Source: Nitrospirota bacterium
Lineage (GTDB): Bacteria; Nitrospinota; Nitrospinia; SZUA-224
DNA: 33,446 bases
Direction: 5' to 3'
NCBI GenBank assembly: GCA_003229375.1
Contig: QIDP01000134.1
Span: 1-33,446 of the forward strand
The stretch's first letter is position 1; each line of letters starts with the position of its first letter. Positions 2,344-32,351 of this stretch are shown piece by piece. The position numbers and the translations under genes are program-made. Below the pieces are notes generated by a model. That model searched no databases. It was not told the origin of the DNA and saw only the letters and a list, made by a program, of their open reading frames with translations.

Positions 2344-2419
2344 CGGGGCGTAGCGCAGCCTGGTTTAGCGCACCTGCCTTGGGAGCAGGGGGTCGGAGGT
2401 TCAAATCCTCTCGCCCCGA
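2344..2419 (+). tRNA. tRNA-Pro (anticodon TGG)
   Basis: The acceptor stem CGGGGCG (2344-2350) pairs with CGCCCCG (2412-2418), with discriminator A at 2419. The anticodon stem CCTGC/GCAGG encloses loop CTTGGGA, giving anticodon TGG. The T-arm is GGAGG-TTCAAAT-CCTCT. No CCA is encoded, so the end must be added by the CCA-adding enzyme. First gene of the tRNA block. Confidence 0.97.
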
Positions 2420-2436
2420 TTAGTATTTAGTATTTG

Positions 2437-2490
2437 GTCGTTAGTATTTAGTATTTGGTTATTATTAACTATTCACTAAATACTAACGAC
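2437..2490. repeat. Perfect 16-bp inverted repeat between tRNA-Pro and tRNA-Arg
   Basis: GTCGTTAGTATTTAGT (2437-2452) is perfectly complementary to 2475-2490, with a 22-nt loop. The surrounding spacer (2421-2504) consists of TAGTATTTAGTATTTGG direct words and ATTCACTAATACT words. The hairpin would form in the tRNA precursor transcript and may be a processing signal. Confidence 0.7.
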
Positions 2491-2504
2491 TATTCACTAA
2501 TACT

Positions 2505-2578
<74 letters not shown>

Positions 2579-2630
2579 CTATATATATAAAATTTCCTGA
2601 AACTTAGGGACAGTATAGAAACCAAATATT

Positions 2631-2750
2631 TAATATCAAAATATACATTTTAAAGGTAAATTATAGACAAGCATATTTCTAAGCCAGAACAGACAAGGAA
2701 GTATTCAAATATATTTACTTTTAAATTGTCTGTTTTGATATTTGATATTA
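2631..2750 (+). repeat. MITE-like repeat, copy A (full length)
   Basis: About 120 bp with imperfect terminal inverted repeats. The left end has ATATCAAAATATACATTTTAAAG; the right end is the inverse, with ACTTTTAAATTGTCTGTTTTGATATTTGATAT split across 2717-2749. The interior word AAGCCAGAACAGACAAGGAA (2681-2700) recurs inverted in copy D. It lies between tRNA-Arg and tRNA-His and contains no ORF. See copies B to E. Confidence 0.75.
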
Positions 2751-2756
2751 AAAAGT

Positions 2757-2833
2757 GGTGAGCGTAGCTCAATTGGCAGAGCACTGGACTGTGGCTCCGG
2801 TGGTTGAGGGTTCAATCCCCTTCGCTCACCCCA
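2757..2833 (+). tRNA. tRNA-His (anticodon GTG)
   Basis: The His-specific extra G(-1) at 2757 faces C73 at 2830. Acceptor GTGAGCG (2758-2764) pairs with CGCTCAC (2823-2829). Anticodon loop CTGTGGC gives GTG. CCA is present at 2831-2833, whether encoded or by chance. Confidence 0.96.
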
Positions 2834-2847
2834 ATTCTCTATTAGTA

Positions 2848-2876
2848 GTTGTTAGTTTTAACTATTCACTAACAAC
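2848..2876. repeat. Inverted repeat between tRNA-His and tRNA-Arg
   Basis: GTTGTTAGT (2848-2856) is the exact inverse of ACTAACAAC (2868-2876), with an 11-nt loop. It is followed by tandem ATTCAC words up to the next tRNA. The design matches the hairpin at 2437-2490 but the arm words differ. Confidence 0.6.
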
Positions 2877-2897
2877 CATTCACTATTCACTAATACT

Positions 2898-2971
2898 GCG
2901 CCCGTAGCTCAGATGGATAGAGCGTCGGACTTCGAATCCGCAGGTCGCAGGTTCGAATCCTGCCGGGCGTG
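2898..2971 (+). tRNA. tRNA-Arg (anticodon TCG)
   Basis: Acceptor GCGCCCG (2898-2904) pairs with CGGGCGT (2964-2970), discriminator G2971. The anticodon loop CTTCGAA gives TCG, reading CGA. The top pair of the anticodon stem is mismatched (U-C), a small oddity. T-arm CAGG-TTCGAAT-CCTG. No CCA is encoded. The upstream ATTCACTAATACT is shared with the first tRNA-Arg. Confidence 0.95.
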
Positions 2972-2981
2972 CTATAATCAT

Positions 2982-3004
2982 GATTTACGATTTTCGATTG
3001 CCGA
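2982..3004. repeat. Short interspersed word, GATTTACGATTTTCGATTG (copy 2)
   Basis: Member of the same word family as 2236-2256 (inverted) and 3221-3250. It sits in the spacer between tRNA-Arg and tRNA-Lys. Confidence 0.4.
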
Positions 3005-3013
3005 TGTATTAGT

Positions 3014-3119
3014 ATTACTACCTTTATGGTGGGCCGTTAGCTCAATTGGTAGAGCAACTGACTCTTAATCAGTAGGTCGCAGGTTCGATCCCTGCACGGC
3101 TCACCATAAGGGTAGTAAT
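3014..3119. repeat. 18-bp inverted repeat bracketing tRNA-Lys
   Basis: ATTACTACCTTTATGGTG (3014-3031) and CACCATAAGGGTAGTAAT (3102-3119) are complementary at 17 of 18 positions. They flank the tRNA and include its first base and its 3' CCA. In the primary transcript the acceptor stem would be extended by a long duplex that buries the CCA until it is processed. Confidence 0.75.
3031..3106 (+). tRNA. tRNA-Lys (anticodon CTT)
   Basis: Acceptor GGGCCGT (3031-3037) pairs with ACGGCTC (3096-3102) with one G-T pair, discriminator A3103. The anticodon arm ACTGA-CTCTTAA-TCAGT gives CTT, reading AAG. CCA is encoded at 3104-3106. Confidence 0.97.
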
Positions 3120-3134
3120 CTGCCATGGATGAAA

Positions 3135-3214
3135 GCGAGAGTGGCGGAATTGGCAGACGCGTCGCGTTTAGGACGCGATGGATAACCATGGGGGTTCGAG
3201 TCCCCCCTCTCGCA
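3135..3214 (+). tRNA. tRNA-Leu (anticodon TAG)
   Basis: Class II tRNA with acceptor GCGAGAG (3135-3141) paired to CTCTCGC (3207-3213) and discriminator A3214. The anticodon loop TTTAGGA between TCGCG and CGCGA gives TAG, reading CUA. The variable arm is short (TGG-ATAA-CCA), making an 80-nt gene. No CCA is encoded. Confidence 0.95.
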
Positions 3215-3220
3215 CTAAAA

Positions 3221-21046: not shown

Positions 21047-21165
21047 CTGTTTTTAAAGTTTTTGCAGTAGAGTCACTTTTGAGTCACTCAACTTTTCCAC
21101 GAAAGAACCCAAAATAATAATATCAGATATCTATAATAAAATCCAATTTCTTTTTTAAAAAATAC

Positions 21166-21194
21166 TTGACAAAAATTGTTAAGTTTAATATTAT
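21166..21194 (+). promoter_or_regulatory. Sigma-70-type promoter of the sulfur module
   Basis: Consensus TTGACA at 21166-21171, a 17-bp spacer, and TATTAT at 21189-21194. The predicted start near 21201 would leave a leader of about 27 nt before the ATG at 21228. Confidence 0.6.
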
Positions 21195-21215
21195 AAATTT
21201 ATTACAAAATTTATA
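21192..21215. promoter_or_regulatory. Candidate operator: perfect 9-bp inverted repeat
   Basis: TATAAATTT (21192-21200), six bases, then AAATTTATA (21207-21215). The dyad overlaps the -10 edge and the predicted transcription start, where a bound protein would block initiation. Its 24-bp span suits an Rrf2-type dimer; such a regulator is encoded at 26096 in the same module. AT-richness makes a chance dyad possible. Confidence 0.4.
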
Positions 21216-21227
21216 TGATATTATCAA

Positions 21228-22133
21228 ATGATACAGATAAGAGCAGACAGTATAATTGATCTGATCGGCTCAACACCGATAATAAGGCTGAACAAGATAG
21301 TAAAGAGGAATTCTGCAACGATCTATGCCAAGGTAGAGGCCTTTAATCCTGGTGGTAGCGTGAAAGACCGCATAGCCCTTAGTATGGTAGAGGATGCAGA
21401 GAAGAGCGGACTCCTAAAAAAAGGGGGAACGATTATTGAACCCACCAGTGGCAATACCGGTATTGCTCTTGCTATAGTCGGCGCTGTAAAGGGGTACAAA
21501 GTAATTCTTGTTGTCTCTGAAGGTATAAGTTCTAAAAAGAGGCTTTTCTTGAGTTATATTGGTGCAGAGGTAGAGTTGAGTGATGCTAAAAAAGGAATGA
21601 AGGGAGCCATGGACAGAGCAGAGGAGATAGTTGCCGAAAACCCAAATTATTTTATGCCGCGGCAGTTCGGCAATCTGGCCAACCCTGAAATTCACAGACG
21701 GACAACAGCGAAGGAGATATTAAAGGCCATGAGCGGGGAGCGTATAGATGCATTTGTAGCCGGAGTAGGAACAGGAGGGACTATCACTGGCATCGGTGAA
21801 GTACTGAAGGGAAAAAATTCTACAGTAAAGGTAGTTGCTGTCGAACCTGCTGCCTCACCAGTCATTTCAGGTGGAAAGGTTGGCTCTCACAGGATACCCG
21901 GCATCGGGGCCGGATTTATACCTGAGATATTGAATACTAATATACTTGATGAGGTAATCGCTGTGAACGATGATGATGCATATATTACACAAAAAGATAT
22001 CTTAATAAAAGAGGGACTGATGGTTGGACCATCATCCGGTGCTGCATGTTTTGCTGCTATAAAGATAGCGCAGAGGCTCGGGAGAAAAAAGAACGTAGTG
22101 GTGATCTTCCCTGACAGGGGGAATAGGGTGTAA
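21228..22133 (+). CDS. cysK: Cysteine synthase family protein (short C-terminus)
   Basis: Fold-type II PLP enzyme predicted to make cysteine from O-acetylserine (or O-phosphoserine) and sulfide. PLP-binding Lys46 is in NPGGSVKDR. The substrate loop is EPTSGNTGIALA and the phosphate cradle is GTGGTITGIG. The protein ends at FPDRGNRV, about ten residues short of the usual tail after this motif, so subunit or partner contacts may differ. There is no clear Shine-Dalgarno upstream of ATG 21228. It is the first gene of the sulfur module, 6 bp before the next. Confidence 0.9.
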   Translation: MIQIRADSIIDLIGSTPIIRLNKIVKRNSATIYAKVEAFNPGGSVKDRIALSMVEDAEKSGLLKKGGTIIEPTSGNTGIALAIVGAVKGYKVILVVSEGISSKKRLFLSYIGAEVELSDAKKGMKGAMDRAEEIVAENPNYFMPRQFGNLANPEIHRRTTAKEILKAMSGERIDAFVAGVGTGGTITGIGEVLKGKNSTVKVVAVEPAASPVISGGKVGSHRIPGIGAGFIPEILNTNILDEVIAVNDDDAYITQKDILIKEGLMVGPSSGAACFAAIKIAQRLGRKKNVVVIFPDRGNRV

Positions 22134-22139
22134 GATATT

Positions 22140-23378
22140 ATGGGTTTTGTAAAAGGATTACAATGTAAAGAGTGCAAACGGAGCTATGCAAAGAAGCCGA
22201 TACACGTATGCGAATTCTGTTTTGGTCCTCTAGAAATAGTCTATGACTATGAAGGGATAAAAGAGGCTATTAGCAGAGATTCTATAGAGGCAGGACCAAA
22301 GAGTATATGGCGATATCGTGAACTTCTCCCCATAGATGGGGAACCAACAGTAGGAAAACATGTCGGTTTTACCCCCTTATTAAGAGGGGAGAATCTGGGC
22401 AAGGTACTGGGTCTTACGAATTTATATATCAAAAATGACAGTGTTAATCATCCCACTCTTTCCTTCAAAGATCGTGTTGTTTCTGTAGCTGTTACAAAGG
22501 CAAAGGAATTCGGATATGATACAGTAGCTTGTGCCTCAACAGGGAATCTTGCAAACTCTGTTGCAGCACATGCCGCAGAAGCAGGTCTTAAGAGTTATAT
22601 ATTTATCCCCTCGGATTTAGAATCCGGAAAGGTCCTTGGTACCCTGATATACGGGACAACTCTCGTTGGTGTAAGGGGAAACTACGATGATGTAAACCGG
22701 CTATGCAGCGAAATCGCTGCAAACTATAAGTGGGCATTCGTCAATATAACTATCAGACCCTATTATGGTGATGGGTCAAAGACCTTTGGATACGAAATCG
22801 CTGAACAATTAGGGTGGCGTGCCCCGGATCATATCATTGTTCCGGTTGCCGGTAGTTCACTGATTACCAAGGTGTGGATGGCCCTCAAGGAGTTTGAACA
22901 GTTGGGTCTGATAGATACGGTAAAGACAAAGATATATGCAGCACAGGCAACAGGGTGTTCACCTGTAACCACTGCAATCAAGAATGGTGCCGAGTTTATC
23001 AAACCTGTAAAACCGCACACAATCGCTAAATCCATAGCTATAGGGAATCCGGCAGATGGCTATTATGGTATCAAGACAGTCGTAGAAAGTGGTGGTTATG
23101 GAGAAGATGTCTCTGATGAGGAGATAGTAGAAGGGATGAAGCTCCTGGCCAGGACCGAGGGTATATTTACAGAAACAGCAGGGGGCGTGACTGTTTCGGT
23201 TACAAAGAAACTCATTGAACAGGGAAGGATCAAGAGGGATGATCTCACTGTGATTTCAATCACCGGTAATGGCCTAAAGACACAGGAGGCTGTAGAGAAT
23301 AGTATAGGGGAACTGACAGTAATAGATCCACGTATAGGTTCCTTTCAGAAAACATTTAATATAGAGGAGGAGAAATAA
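22140..23378 (+). CDS. thrC: Threonine synthase-like PLP enzyme with N-terminal zinc ribbon
   Basis: A zinc ribbon (Cys9, 12, 24 and 27) precedes a fold-type II PLP domain with Lys110 in TLSFKDR and a CASTGNLANSVAAHAA loop. Closest to bacterial/archaeal threonine synthase, which converts O-phosphohomoserine to threonine. Cysteate synthase is a close relative, so the reaction is not certain. Lying between cysK and a sulfur-carrier gene, it could use phosphohomoserine as a sulfur acceptor instead (inference only). Length 412. The next gene follows in 2 bp. Confidence 0.82.
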   Translation: MGFVKGLQCKECKRSYAKKPIHVCEFCFGPLEIVYDYEGIKEAISRDSIEAGPKSIWRYRELLPIDGEPTVGKHVGFTPLLRGENLGKVLGLTNLYIKNDSVNHPTLSFKDRVVSVAVTKAKEFGYDTVACASTGNLANSVAAHAAEAGLKSYIFIPSDLESGKVLGTLIYGTTLVGVRGNYDDVNRLCSEIAANYKWAFVNITIRPYYGDGSKTFGYEIAEQLGWRAPDHIIVPVAGSSLITKVWMALKEFEQLGLIDTVKTKIYAAQATGCSPVTTAIKNGAEFIKPVKPHTIAKSIAIGNPADGYYGIKTVVESGGYGEDVSDEEIVEGMKLLARTEGIFTETAGGVTVSVTKKLIEQGRIKRDDLTVISITGNGLKTQEAVENSIGELTVIDPRIGSFQKTFNIEEEK

Positions 23379-23380
23379 AG

Positions 23381-23677
23381 ATGCCAATAAATGTACGTAT
23401 CCCATCTCCCCTTATGAAGCTGACCAATAATCAGGGAGAGGTGTCGGCTGAGGGGAAAAATATAGGAGAGGTGTTATCAGATCTGGAGCGGCAGTATCCC
23501 GGGATAAGGGAGAGGCTCTATGATGAGAATGGTTCTCTCAGAAGATTTATCAATATATATAAAAATGAGGAAGATATAAGGTTCCTGGATGGTGAGTCCA
23601 CACCAACAAAGGATGGTGATGAGATCTCCATTATACCTGCCATAGCAGGAGGTAGTATAAAAAATGTCAGATTTTGA
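23381..23677 (+). CDS. cysO: CysO/MoaD-like sulfur carrier with C-terminal tail after Gly-Gly
   Basis: Ubiquitin-fold sulfur carrier, expected to hold sulfur as a C-terminal thiocarboxylate. The sequence follows mycobacterial CysO closely in pattern: RFINIYKNEEDIRFLDG and IIPAIAGG. CysO normally ends at Gly-Gly. Here Gly90-Gly91 is followed by SIKNVRF before the stop. The frame is unambiguous, and the stop overlaps the start of the E1-like gene by 14 bases. The tail would have to be removed before activation, as established for QbsE and HcyS. No JAMM/Mec-type peptidase is in the window. Confidence 0.88.
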   Translation: MPINVRIPSPLMKLTNNQGEVSAEGKNIGEVLSDLERQYPGIRERLYDENGSLRRFINIYKNEEDIRFLDGESTPTKDGDEISIIPAIAGGSIKNVRF

Positions 23678-24476
23678 TTTCACAGATGAGCAGATACACA
23701 GATATAGCCGGCACATAATCCTGCCCCAGGTAGGTGGTAAGGGACAGAAGAAACTTTTAGAGTCAAAGGTCCTTATCCTCGGCGCGGGTGGGTTAGGCTC
23801 CCCTGCTGCGTATTATCTGGCCGCTGCCGGTATAGGGACAATGGGGATAGTAGATTTTGATGAGGTCGACATAAGCAATCTCCAGCGACAGATACTCCAC
23901 AATACAGCAGACATCGGGAGGCCAAAGGTTGAATCTGCAAAGAAGACAATAGTCTCACTTAATCCTGATGTAAAGGTCGAGTGTTACAGGGAGAAGATTA
24001 CCTCTGAAAATATCAGAAGGATCATTGAGGGATATGATATCATACTTGACGGCTCCGACAACTTCCCGACCCGATACCTGGTAAATGATGCCTGCATAAT
24101 ATCGAACAAAATCAATGTGCATGGAAGTATATTCCGTTTTGAGGGACAGGTCACAGTATTCAAACCAAAAGAGGGACCCTGTTACCGGTGTCTCTACCCT
24201 GAGCCCCCTCCTGCAGGGATGGTTCCCAGTTGTCAGGAGGCAGGGGTATTAGGTGTACTGCCCGGGATTATAGGTACACTTCAGGCAATAGAGGCATTAA
24301 AGTTGATATTGGACATAGGAAAACCACTGGTAGGAAGCCTCCTGCTCTATGATTCTTTGAAAACAGAATTTCGGCAGTTGAAGCTCCGGCAGGATACTGA
24401 ATGTCCTGTATGTAGTGAAAATCCAACTATCACAGAACTGATTGATTATGAGGAATTCTGTGGTGTAAGAATATAA
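23664..24476 (+). CDS. moeB: E1-like sulfur-carrier adenylyltransferase (MoeB/ThiF/HesA family)
   Basis: Activates the carrier C-terminus as acyl-adenylate for sulfur loading. Nucleotide loop GAGGLGSP (40-47); DxSDNFPTRY block (about 129-138); zinc cysteines 173, 176, 247 and 250; and Cys190 in PSCQEAGVLG at the position of the family's reactive cysteine. There is no rhodanese domain, so sulfur must come from elsewhere, perhaps the TusA domain of the next gene. Length 270. It overlaps the carrier gene, indicating a dedicated pair. The stop codon is the first triplet of a hairpin repeat. Confidence 0.92.
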   Translation: MSDFDFTDEQIHRYSRHIILPQVGGKGQKKLLESKVLILGAGGLGSPAAYYLAAAGIGTMGIVDFDEVDISNLQRQILHNTADIGRPKVESAKKTIVSLNPDVKVECYREKITSENIRRIIEGYDIILDGSDNFPTRYLVNDACIISNKINVHGSIFRFEGQVTVFKPKEGPCYRCLYPEPPPAGMVPSCQEAGVLGVLPGIIGTLQAIEALKLILDIGKPLVGSLLLYDSLKTEFRQLKLRQDTECPVCSENPTITELIDYEEFCGVRI

Positions 24477-24540: not shown

Positions 24541-24561
24541 ATGGCGAGAAGGAGTATCAAT

Positions 24562-25746
24562 ATGGATAAAGTATTAGAGGTAGAAGAAGATATAGATCAA
24601 TCCATACTTACAAAGATAGGAAACACCCCGCTTATAAAGATCAAAAACCTGACAAAGGGACTAAAGGGTGTTGAAATATATGCCAAGGCAGAATGGTACA
24701 ATCTAAGCGGATCTGTAAAGGCAAGGCCTGCCTTGAGGATGATTTTAGATGGTGAGAAATCTGGTATGCTGACAAAGGAAAAGACCATACTCGATTCTAC
24801 CTCAGGGAATACAGGGGTGGCCTACGCCTTAATCGGACAGGTAAAGGGGTATGCTGTTAAACTCGTAGTACCGGCGAATGTATGTATTGAGAGAAAAAAG
24901 GCCATGGCTGAAACATATAATGCAGAAATAGTCCTCTCAGACCCCATAGATGGCTCGGACGGGGCCATTAAGGAGGCACACAGGATATATAATGAAGATC
25001 CTGACAGATACTTCATGCCTGATCAATACAATAATCCATCAAACTGGAAGGCACATTTTGATACAACAGCGGTTGAGATTATAGAACAGACAAAAGGAAA
25101 GATCACCCACTTTGTGGCCGGGATAGGTACAGGAGGGACGGTTATAGGGACAGGAAGAGGATTGAAGAGATATAATAAAGATATTAAGGTCATTGCTGTA
25201 GAGCCATCAGAACCTCTGCACGGTATCGAAGGACTGAAGCATATGGGAAGTTCTATAATTCCAGGCATATATGATGAAGGTTCCCTGGATGGGAAGATAA
25301 GTGTAAAGACAGAGGACTCCTATGAGATGGTTCAAAAGTTGTTCCATGAGGAAGGACTTATAGTTGGTCATTCTTCAGGTGCGGCTATGAAAGCAACGCT
25401 TGAGCTGGCGCGGAGAATAAATGAGGGGGTCATTGTTACTGTATTTCCGGATAGCTGCGAATGTTATGTTGCAGTTGGTGAATTTGAAAAGGGAACAGAA
25501 AAATTGGTTAGAGAGAAGACGATACAGGAGCTTAATATCAGAGGAGAGGTATGTCCTTATACCTTTGTCAGATCAAAACTGGCAATAGAGAAATTAGGAC
25601 ATGGGGATCTTCTCAGGATTATTGTAGATCATTTTCCTGCTATTGATAATGTCCCGCGGAGCTTAACAGATGATGGGCATGAGATATTAGAGATAAATCA
25701 GCTCAATGATACTGATTGGGAGATAATAGTGAAAAAAAGTGCCTAA
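24562..25746 (+). CDS. Cysteine synthase (CysM-like) fused to a TusA sulfur-transfer domain
   Basis: Residues 1 to about 310 form a fold-type II PLP enzyme with Lys53 in LSGSVKARPALRM, STSGNTGVAYA and GTGGTVIGTG. Residues about 320-394 form a TusA-like domain with Cys331 in RGEVCPYTFVRSKLA; the usual CPxP is CPYT here. The fusion suggests that persulfide sulfur is delivered in cis to an aminoacrylate intermediate, or via the CysO-like carrier. ATG 24562 is chosen over 24541 because AAGGAG lies 7 nt upstream. The last codons AGT GCC TAA lie within a repeat. Length 394. Confidence 0.88.
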   Translation: MDKVLEVEEDIDQSILTKIGNTPLIKIKNLTKGLKGVEIYAKAEWYNLSGSVKARPALRMILDGEKSGMLTKEKTILDSTSGNTGVAYALIGQVKGYAVKLVVPANVCIERKKAMAETYNAEIVLSDPIDGSDGAIKEAHRIYNEDPDRYFMPDQYNNPSNWKAHFDTTAVEIIEQTKGKITHFVAGIGTGGTVIGTGRGLKRYNKDIKVIAVEPSEPLHGIEGLKHMGSSIIPGIYDEGSLDGKISVKTEDSYEMVQKLFHEEGLIVGHSSGAAMKATLELARRINEGVIVTVFPDSCECYVAVGEFEKGTEKLVREKTIQELNIRGEVCPYTFVRSKLAIEKLGHGDLLRIIVDHFPAIDNVPRSLTDDGHEILEINQLNDTDWEIIVKKSA

Positions 25747-25845: not shown

Positions 25846-26088
25846 ATGGCTAAACTAAAGGTTCATTTAACATTCTCTGGTGAGACGATTAAAAGACCTC
25901 TAATCTATGAGATAGGACAGGAGTTTAAAGTAGTTACCAATATACGGAAGGCAAATGTGGATGGGAAGACAGGATGGGTTGACTTAGAGATCACAGGAGA
26001 AGGGGAAGAGATCGACAGAGCAGTTGAGGCCTTGAAAGAAAAAGGGGTAAGGGTTGATCCCATTGAAGGGGATGTTATAGAAGGATAG
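25846..26088 (+). CDS. Stand-alone NIL-domain protein
   Basis: An 80-residue protein consisting only of a NIL domain, the ferredoxin-like fold found at the C-terminus of the methionine transporter ATPase MetN and in NIL-ferredoxin proteins linked to homocysteine synthesis from sulfide in methanogens. Recognisable by LTFSGETIKRPLIYEIGQ, NIRKANVDGKTGWVDLEI, and the closing ALKEKGVRVDPI. It may bind a sulfur amino acid and sense or modulate the pathway (inference). Strong RBS AAAGGAG, 8 bp before the regulator gene. Confidence 0.85.
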   Translation: MAKLKVHLTFSGETIKRPLIYEIGQEFKVVTNIRKANVDGKTGWVDLEITGEGEEIDRAVEALKEKGVRVDPIEGDVIEG

Positions 26089-26095
26089 ATCAATT

Positions 26096-26563
26096 ATGAG
26101 GATATCAGCAAAAGCTCATTATGCAGTCAGGGCAATGTTGGATATTGCCTCTAATCCACAGAACTATCCTATCTCACTGTCAAGCATCTCTGTAAGACAG
26201 GAGATATCTCTACACTACTTAGAACAGTTGTTCATGAAACTCAGAAAGTCAAAACTCGTAAAGAGTGTCAGGGGGCCCGGCGGTGGATATCTCATGGCAA
26301 AGAAAGCGGACCAGATCAGTATAGGGGATATATTCAGGGCTGTCGACGAATCTATTTCCCCTGCCGTGTGTGTCGACACAGAAAATTTCGATGGTGACCC
26401 TTGTAACAGGGTTGATAGTTGCGTCACCAGGCTTTTATGGCAGAGATTGGCCAAACATATATCAGATATCCTCTATTCAATCTCATTAGAAGATCTCCGT
26501 TGTGAAGAAAAGAATATGAGTCGGGATAAATCGGTAAGACACACTCTCAGTTTTGAAATCTAA
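26096..26563 (+). CDS. Rrf2-family regulator with IscR-like cysteines
   Basis: Winged-helix repressor/activator. The DNA-binding region (about 1-65) carries the SVRQEISLHYLEQLFMKLRK recognition segment and the wing VRGPGGGYLMAK. Three cysteines, 92, 103 and 109, occupy the IscR Fe-S ligand region (spacing 10 and 5 rather than IscR's 5 and 5), so an Fe-S cluster is likely. Cys136 is a fourth. Length 155. Its position in the sulfur module suggests control of these genes by Fe-S, cysteine or redox status. Its stop overlaps the DUF502 start (TAATG). Confidence 0.9.
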   Translation: MRISAKAHYAVRAMLDIASNPQNYPISLSSISVRQEISLHYLEQLFMKLRKSKLVKSVRGPGGGYLMAKKADQISIGDIFRAVDESISPAVCVDTENFDGDPCNRVDSCVTRLLWQRLAKHISDILYSISLEDLRCEEKNMSRDKSVRHTLSFEI

Positions 26564-30779: not shown

Positions 30780-30900
30780 AAGTGCCTAAAGTGCCTAAAG
30801 TGAGCTAAAGTGAGCTAAAGTTAAAGGTATTTAAAATTTTAATATAAAAGATAATTCCTTAACTTTAGGCACTTCAAACTTTAGATCACTTTAGGCACTT
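30780..30900. repeat. AGTGCCTAA repeat, copy 2 (contains the aroDE stop codon)
   Basis: AAGTGCCTAAAGTG (30780-30793) is the inverse of 30887-30900. The left part carries tandem GTGCCTAAA and GTGAGCTAAA words; the right part carries the inverted words. On the minus strand the aroDE gene ends AGT GCC TAA inside this repeat, exactly as cysM::tusA does in copy 1. It fills nearly the whole 120-bp gap between aroDE and aroA. Confidence 0.8.
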
Positions 30901-32351
30901 ATTTTATTTAATACAATCTCCCTCATTATATCGACAGGTGCCTCTCTCTTTGTCCACATCTCAAACTGTGCAACCCCCTGGTTGATAAACATCTCAACCC
31001 CTGGAATAGTTATGCAGCCCTTTGCCTCTGCTTCCTTCAAAAGCCTTGTCTTGATCGGGTTGTAAACAGCATCAAATACAATCATCCCCTCCTTGAGGAG
31101 GGAATCAGGGACAGGAGACCTGTCAACATCGGGATACATCCCGACAGGTGTCGTATTGATAAAAATGTCCATACTTATATTACCTAACTCATCCGGATTG
31201 CAATATTTACAACCGATATCCTTTGAAAGGGAGATAGCCTTATCCGTATCTATATCAGTAATAGTAAGGATTCCTCCTCTTCCCTTGACCCCAAAACCGA
31301 TCGCCCTTGCAACTCCACCTGCACCTATCATAACAGCGTTTTTCCCTTTGATCTCTGTTCTATCTTCTAATGCCATTATAGCACCACTACAATCAGTATT
31401 ATATCCCACCAATTTATCATCTTTCACAACCACTGTATTTACCGCCCCTATATCTTCAGCCTTTTTATCTATTCCATCCAGGAGGTCAATTACCTCCTCC
31501 TTGAACGGCATCGTAACACTCAGTCCCTTAAAGAGACCTTTAAAACCGGTCATGAAGGAATTAATATCTTCGACCAGAAAGGGGAGATAGATATTGTCCA
31601 GATCAAGCTCAGCAAATGCCAGGTTATGGATCAAATACCCCATACTCTCACTAACAGGGTTTCCCACCAAACCATAAATATTTATCTCCTGACCAAGCCT
31701 ATCAACACGATAGACACTCTTAAGCACCCTTGCAGGTATCTGTCCACTGGCACTCTCCTTTCCCTCTTCAAGTGAGCCAAAGGTAAGATAACCTCCAATA
31801 ATAGGTGAAAGTATCCTGCTTATCTCACCATGCCTCCCCATACAGAAAGAGATAATATCCTTTCTCTTCTCATGCCCCTTTATCAGGTCAAATATAACCA
31901 GATTATCATTAATGGAGTTGGCAAAGGTAACAATTTTTATAATATCGCCTCCTGATATAGCTATATCGTCATATAACTCTTTTATATCAGAAGGGGTTTC
32001 AGTGAAATTGTGATAAGAGACAATAACCTTTGTCCCTCTGCTTTCTTCTATCACTCCTTTCCTCAACCTCTCATCCGTACTAAACTCAATGTCGATATAT
32101 TCAGCACCGAGTCTTACTGCCTCCCTTAACAGGCCAGCCCTCTCCTCCTCTGAACCTTTAAATCTTCCCCCTTCCTTTTGGCTCCTGGGTGTAACAATAA
32201 CAGGCTTACTTTTTTCCTTGATCAATTTTGCGATATCAAGATCCCTGATATAGTCTATCCTCAGCTCTAATATATCAGCTATCTCAGCCCCCTTTTTCAT
32301 GTCTCTTATCGCCTCATCTGTTGTTGAGGCAGTAATAGGAATACATATCAC
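30891..32351 (-). CDS. aroDE: Bifunctional 3-dehydroquinate dehydratase / shikimate dehydrogenase
   Basis: Residues 1 to about 215 are a type I dehydroquinase with Schiff-base Lys139 (DIIKIVTFA), His114 and MGRHGEISR. Residues about 225-486 are shikimate dehydrogenase with catalytic Lys284 (VTMPFK), Asp320 (YNTDCSGA) and the NADP loop GAGGVARA. The substrate motif reads SESMGYLIHN: the first Ser is kept but Gly237 replaces the usual second Ser. Such AroD-AroE fusions are known in plants, chlamydiae and some bacteria. GTG start; GGGGG lies 7 nt upstream. Length 486. The last codons lie in a repeat. Confidence 0.94.
   Translation of the reverse strand: MICIPITASTTDEAIRDMKKGAEIADILELRIDYIRDLDIAKLIKEKSKPVIVTPRSQKEGGRFKGSEEERAGLLREAVRLGAEYIDIEFSTDERLRKGVIEESRGTKVIVSYHNFTETPSDIKELYDDIAISGGDIIKIVTFANSINDNLVIFDLIKGHEKRKDIISFCMGRHGEISRILSPIIGGYLTFGSLEEGKESASGQIPARVLKSVYRVDRLGQEINIYGLVGNPVSESMGYLIHNLAFAELDLDNIYLPFLVEDINSFMTGFKGLFKGLSVTMPFKEEVIDLLDGIDKKAEDIGAVNTVVVKDDKLVGYNTDCSGAIMALEDRTEIKGKNAVMIGAGGVARAIGFGVKGRGGILTITDIDTDKAISLSKDIGCKYCNPDELGNISMDIFINTTPVGMYPDVDRSPVPDSLLKEGMIVFDAVYNPIKTRLLKEAEAKGCITIPGVEMFINQGVAQFEMWTKREAPVDIMREIVLNKISA

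Follow-up and report, generated by a model that had tools for sequence, protein, structure and literature searches.

The sulfur gene cluster of this Nitrospinota bacterium raises the question of how its cysK promoter is controlled and where the Rrf2-family regulator encoded in the same run of genes would bind. The window, i.e. the whole stretch of 33,446 nt that was analysed, contains six co-directional genes ahead of the regulator gene, all on the forward strand. These are cysK, encoding cysteine synthase A (21228-22133; over the TIGR01139 cut-off), and the genes for a threonine-synthase-like PLP enzyme (22140-23378), a ThiS/MoaD-like sulfur carrier (23381-23677), a ThiF/MoeB-like adenylyltransferase (23664-24476), a CysM-like domain fused to a TusA domain (24541-25746) and a NIL-domain protein (25846-26088). 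The Rrf2-family gene (26096-26563, forward strand, 155 amino acids) follows them in the same run, as the original prediction had placed it. At two other loci (L138 and L139) these two parts are encoded by separate ORFs, one CysM-like and one TusA-like, between which lie more small ORFs that are unidentified. The threonine-synthase-like gene adjoins cysK in most of the Nitrospinota stretches and shows 66–78% identity (95% in the congener G002), above that of CysK, which is 54–68% identical outside the genus. This enzyme may be a dedicated sulfur enzyme. The window also carries a gene for a fused type I 3-dehydroquinase and shikimate dehydrogenase (30891-32351), adjoined by EPSP synthase and shikimate kinase genes.

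Upstream of cysK, a promoter is seen in the sequence exactly where it had been predicted (21166-21194, forward strand), with TTGACA at 21166-21171, a 17-nt spacer and TATTAT at 21189-21194. If transcription starts about 7 nt past the -10 box, the leader would be 27 nt long, and no Shine-Dalgarno sequence is visible ahead of the cysK start codon; the initial description of a leader of about 27 nt lacking this element agrees with the sequence for such a start. The 100 nt before the start codon consist of A or T at 88 positions. No Rfam family matches the leader region at the gathering threshold, and a riboswitch at the cysK leader was rejected on this result. Together with the IscR-type site and its co-occurrence with Rrf2 described below, this supports the proposal that the promoter would be controlled at transcription by the operon's own Rrf2 protein, and not by a riboswitch.

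The operator had been placed in an AT-rich dyad overlapping the edge of the -10 box, TATAAATTT (21192-21200)-ATTACA-AAATTTATA (21207-21215), to which no strand is assigned. The dyad does exist at 21192-21215 with perfect 9-bp arms, and these arms, a position fitting for an operator and the finding of its exact letters only once in the whole genome would speak for binding of the Rrf2 regulator there. However, such symmetry is at chance level in this DNA. Of 5000 versions of the 100-nt leader made by dinucleotide shuffling, 356 had at least one perfect dyad with 9-bp arms and a gap of 3–10 nt, and shuffled whole windows contained 1.5 on average versus one in the real window. The letters of the dyad were found within 3 mismatches at 3 places in the window versus 0.09 expected, a count for which the letters were picked after the fact; of the two extra matches, one is a member of a repeat and the other lies within an ORF. 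The sequence TATACATTTTAAAGGTAAATTATA (2642-2665), located within a cluster of six tRNA genes (2344-3215), is one of 8 near-identical copies of a dispersed repeat in the same genome. Genome-wide, 26 places lie within 3 mismatches of the dyad, 8 of them being the copies of this repeat; the reversed pattern, run as a control, gave 17. A regulon defined by the dyad was rejected on the single exact place and on this comparison. In G002, each arm carries one substitution (TATAAATTC / AAAATTATA), leaving 7 of 9 pairs, and 20 of the 24 letters are identical. None of six other promoters bearing a site of the type described below has a perfect dyad at this position, though an unrelated dyad in which 8 of 9 positions pair is present in that of G076. 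Moreover, as the dyad begins within the -10 box, its left arm would remain untranscribed and no RNA hairpin would form, again assuming a start about 7 nt past this box. The dyad has probably arisen by chance in AT-rich DNA, and its function as the operator, rejected on the shuffles, the broken symmetry in the congener and the other site-bearing promoters, appears extremely unlikely. Two observations had been named as speaking against it: lack of conservation in relatives, which is what we found, and binding of the regulator elsewhere, for which there is now a better candidate site where the protein would bind.

This likely operator, judged from its sequence and absent from the original prediction, is the 25-mer ATACTTGACAAAAATTGTTAAGTTT on the forward strand at 21162-21186. 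It is IscR type-1-like, agreeing at 21 of 25 positions with the type-1 consensus ATASYYGACTRWWWYAGTCRRSTAT published for E. coli IscR (PMC3899308). Its core is a dyad with one mismatch, ACTTGACAA-AAA-TTGTTAAGT (21164-21184); the 25-mer covers the -35 box and its right arm sits in the promoter spacer. In P. aeruginosa, the iscR promoter is overlapped by a pair of sites that are 68 and 76% identical to the consensus (PMC3899308). In a scan of the window with the type-1 consensus, 21162-21186 was the sole site scoring at least 19, and shuffling the leader 5000 times or the whole window 60 times never gave a site that reached 21. In G002 the 25-mer is identical at 24 of 25 positions; upstream of cysK, this genome is unrelated to the window until about position 21160, and the third codon positions of cysK are 72% identical between the two.

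Could this be a strong constitutive promoter without any operator, whose TTGACA box mimics an IscR site? The -35 box does lie inside the motif, TTGACA alone accounts for 5 of the 21 consensus matches, and the phylum-wide counts of two-mismatch matches given below are not above control. However, when TTGACA is held fixed, only about 6e-5 of random sites of leader composition score at least 21. The right arm, although it lies in the spacer, is kept in relatives, and the site co-occurs with Rrf2 among 57 genomes. We consider the absence of an operator very unlikely.

This co-occurrence was examined in a phylum set of 77 genomes; when related enzymes are counted too, 69 of them show a match to CysK. 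Upstream DNA was taken from 58 genomes plus the window's own, and 57 genomes were scored, own included, G035 and G041 being left out for having less than 150 nt upstream. Genomes without a near-full cysK match were left unscored, and two loci were left out as not being the main cysK (L192, best score 15; L193, a cysM, best score 17). Rrf2 orthologs with at least 52% identity are found in 8 of the 77 genomes (G000, G003, G004, G005, G072, G073, G075 and G076). A site scoring at least 19 within 350 nt upstream of cysK is present in 7 of the 8 genomes with an ortholog and in 2 of the 49 without (Fisher 1e-6, a guide only because the genomes share ancestry). With a cut-off of 20 the figures are 5 of 8 versus 1 of 49. 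The two site-bearers at 19 without an ortholog are G002, in which the contig stops short of where the Rrf2 gene would lie, and G068, in which the site is without TTGACA. G072 has an ortholog, yet no site of at least 19 was found upstream of its cysK. As for the genus itself, one of the two other genomes, G002, has cysK (CysK 86% identical), and no cysK was found in G001. The regulator named in the original prediction is thus supported, but its operator is not.

A search pattern derived from the 25-mer-type sites was run over the 77 genomes with the reversed pattern as control. Exact matches (n=5) precede cysK in G005, a sulfite-reductase-like gene in G071 and cysD in G074, G075 and G076, and matches with one mismatch (n=2) precede cysK in G003 and G004. 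All 7 matches with at most one mismatch are located before cysK, cysD or a sulfite-reductase-like gene, two sites of the cysK kind having helped to shape the pattern. The two-mismatch matches include one before the sulfite-reductase-like gene of G072 and one before cysE followed by a cysteine desulfurase gene in G005. Family searches back the CysD, CysE, desulfurase fragment and NIR/SIR domain assignments at these targets; the gene after cysD is presumably cysN, named from reading its start. Within two mismatches there are 31 matches versus 45 for the reversed control, so that a two-mismatch match carries little weight by itself. The counts are 21 versus 8 for 12 of the genomes, G000-G005 and G071-G076 (groups f1, f2, f3 and f9), and 10 versus 37 for the other 65. 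Twelve of 24 two-mismatch matches were inspected: 7 precede cysK, a sulfite-reductase-like gene or cysE, and no evident sulfur gene is located downstream of those at L238, L246, L250, L251 and L252. In all 14 collected sites (12 distinct), TTGACA is followed by TANNNT exactly 17 nt on, a hexamer that formed no part of the site search. In every case the motif thus extends over the -35 box and the spacer of a promoter ahead of sulfur genes, in keeping with a repressor competing with RNA polymerase.

In the bacterium's own genome, the -35 motif gave 4 forward and 4 reverse matches versus 12 and 14 in the control, and a second pattern scan gave 48 and 57 versus 32 and 48. An own-genome regulon defined by the -35 motif was rejected, with counts below or near control and no second convincing site. 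There are 13 two-mismatch places, one being the window site and another L250. Nine of the remaining 11 lie inside ORFs, one (L264) is without a listed ORF and one is a weak candidate (L259:1499-1606, contig C38). At the latter, AATCTTGACAAGAATTACAAGGTTT, which matches the IscR consensus at 16 of 25 positions and has TATGAT 17 nt after TTGACA, precedes a Fur-family gene and is followed by GATAATTATTATCATTATC, a sequence that we take to resemble a Fur box. From the sequence ahead of it, this Fur-family gene may be another target of the Rrf2 protein in this genome. Searches of the genome gave no match for cysD and remote ones only for the sulfite-reductase-like protein. Outside the phylum, 23 of 80 cysK loci were scanned upstream of cysK and none reached 18 (best 17). 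In Geobacteraceae units in which Rrf2 precedes cysK, TCTTGACAA is located shortly ahead of the Rrf2 gene (L023:2488, L024:6266 and L025:6385), scoring 18 in L023 and 17 in L025, with L024 not among the best matches listed. These units could possibly share the same control outside Nitrospinota.

The genome, about 93% complete at 2.56 Mb in 203 contigs, yielded a single Rrf2, the protein encoded at 26096-26563, which scores 128 bits for the Rrf2 winged-helix domain PF02082 (cut-off 30). IscR is its best NCBIfam and PDB match, but at 153.7 bits it stays under the cut-off of the IscR equivalog model (207.55), and at 99.8 bits under that of the CymR model (195). Being below both curated cut-offs, it is filed neither as IscR nor as CymR. 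Over its DNA-binding half, the alignment with E. coli IscR needs no gaps and E43, Q44 and R59 are conserved; at residue 40 the protein has His, where E. coli IscR has Ser. Arg59 is presumably a DNA-contact residue, as in IscR. The roles of IscR E43 and Q44 have been described (PMC3899308, PMC9338935). Three cysteines, Cys92, Cys103 and Cys109, are kept in all 8 orthologs and in 7 of 7 rows of alignment A3. The cluster of IscR is held by three Cys and one His (PMC3899308). Of this ligand set the three Cys are present and the His is missing, the place of IscR His107 being taken by Arg112 here and by Arg or Ser in the orthologs. By analogy, an Fe-S input through the three conserved cysteines is possible.

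The Rrf2 protein also has a C-terminal tail, HTLSFEI (codons 149-155; 26540-26560, forward strand), which is a proposed CysK-docking peptide. CysE, the CdiA toxin and EGL-9 are held by CysK or its homologs through a C-terminal Ile that is anchored in the active site (PMC12895370, PMC5562914), and B. subtilis CymR is named among the proteins with such a motif (PMC12895370). The Ile tail is kept in 5 of the 8 orthologs, the others being HSFDFCI (G072), HSFAFSI (G073) and HAFSFSI (G075 and G076). Three Geobacteraceae Rrf2 proteins whose genes adjoin cysK end in HRFVYYI, HRFMYYI and HRFTYYI, and one adjoining cysK at a Lachnospiraceae locus (one locus) ends in DYSI. The tail is absent from the Rrf2 of G003, G004 and G005, though these genomes have the site, and the cysK-linked homologs at L068 and L088 lack it as well. 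When distinct homologs at the searched loci are counted, 11 of the 16 that share their locus with cysK or cysM are Ile-ended versus 3 of 22 others (Fisher 8e-4, a guide only because of shared ancestry). An [FY]xI ending is found in all 11 Ile-ended cysK/cysM-linked homologs and in 1 of the 3 Ile-ended others. For comparison, among 359 mechanical ORFs of at least 200 amino acids from the window and fetched stretches, non-genes included, 9 have Ile as their last residue and an [FYW]xI ending occurs in none. In a structure predicted from seven sequences, with a mean pLDDT of 76.6, residues 146-155 fall under 50, as does the cysteine loop 89-101, and the tail is probably unfolded in this model. 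The CysK of the window carries TSGNTG, starting at residue 73, as well as Q146; we read these as the CysE-peptide-binding residues named in PMC12895370. By its sequence and by analogy, the Rrf2 tail would be of the kind that docks in CysK.

One may ask whether a plain IscR-type sensor acts at the same operator, with an Fe-S cluster setting the binding, CysK uninvolved and the tail serving otherwise. The best database matches and the invariant cysteines point in this direction, cluster-loaded E. coli IscR binds type-1 sites (PMC3899308), and G003, G004 and G005 have the site without the Ile tail. However, the score is under the IscR cut-off, the histidine ligand is missing, the sites precede cysteine and sulfate-assimilation genes, and the Ile tail is found in most orthologs and in cysK-linked Rrf2 proteins of other phyla. 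We regard a plain IscR-type sensor as rather unlikely. The reading that we favour, with reasonable though not high confidence, is a CymR-like, CysK-coupled and possibly Fe-S-dependent Rrf2 repressor that would occlude the cysK promoter at the 25-mer. The computed elements are the site, its conservation, its co-occurrence with Rrf2, its recurrence before sulfur genes of relatives, and the conserved tail with its predicted lack of folding. Binding and repression by Rrf2, docking in CysK, the effector and any cluster would follow by analogy with CymR and IscR. An Rrf2 dimer would sit on the 25-mer and block RNA polymerase at the -35 box, which would keep cysK, the sulfur-carrier genes downstream of it and the Rrf2 gene itself repressed. 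With ample cysteine and little O-acetylserine, the Ile-ended tail would dock in the active site of CysK, and the DNA would be held by this complex. A rise in O-acetylserine would displace the tail from CysK and open the operon. The three conserved cysteines could provide an added iron-sulfur input. The precedent is the O-acetylserine-sensitive CymR-CysK scheme of Bacillus subtilis (PMC3828012; see also PMC12895370, PMC4961446).

The proposed system shares features with both of these regulators. As with CymR-CysK, an Rrf2 protein is tied to cysteine/sulfur genes with cysK linked, and its sequence has a C-terminal Ile motif with CysK as likely partner. In relatives, the genes preceded by candidate sites are cysK, cysD, cysE and a sulfite-reductase-like one. 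The protein differs from CymR by its three IscR-like cysteines, CymR using none and binding no cluster (PMC9338935), by a score of about half the CymR cut-off, and by its phylum, Nitrospinota. With IscR of E. coli and P. aeruginosa it shares the closest sequence match, E43, Q44, R59, the three cysteines and the type-1-like site over the promoter. Unlike IscR, it has Arg112 for the histidine ligand, five extra residues between the first two cysteines, cysteine/sulfur genes as targets, an Ile tail and a score under the IscR cut-off. The predicted-unfolded tail ending in Ile also recalls those by which CysE and CdiA dock on CysK, but here it belongs to a transcription factor, as in CymR, and its interaction with CysK is presumed. 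It is conceivable, and we propose it only tentatively, that there is an Rrf2 repressor class beyond the Bacillus-type CymR, combining an IscR-type three-cysteine Fe-S/iron sensor with a CymR-type Ile tail that reads cysteine via CysK, using IscR type-1-like sites, and shared through cysK linkage by Nitrospinota, Geobacteraceae and some Lachnospiraceae. Among open-licence papers, none pairing Nitrospinota with Rrf2 was found, which is weak evidence of novelty, and among the open-licence matches listed no title or abstract start dealt with this combination of Rrf2, IscR, CymR, CysK and sulfur.

If this proposal is correct, it would provide a testable wiring diagram for cysteine/sulfur control in the little-studied Nitrospinota, in which a repressor would match cysteine production to need by sensing CysK. 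In the Rrf2 family, IscR and CymR represent the two best-known branches; a single protein would then link them, having the DNA site and the cysteines of the former and the enzyme-docking tail of the latter. The Ile tail could serve as a simple sequence mark for finding CysK-coupled regulators in other bacteria.
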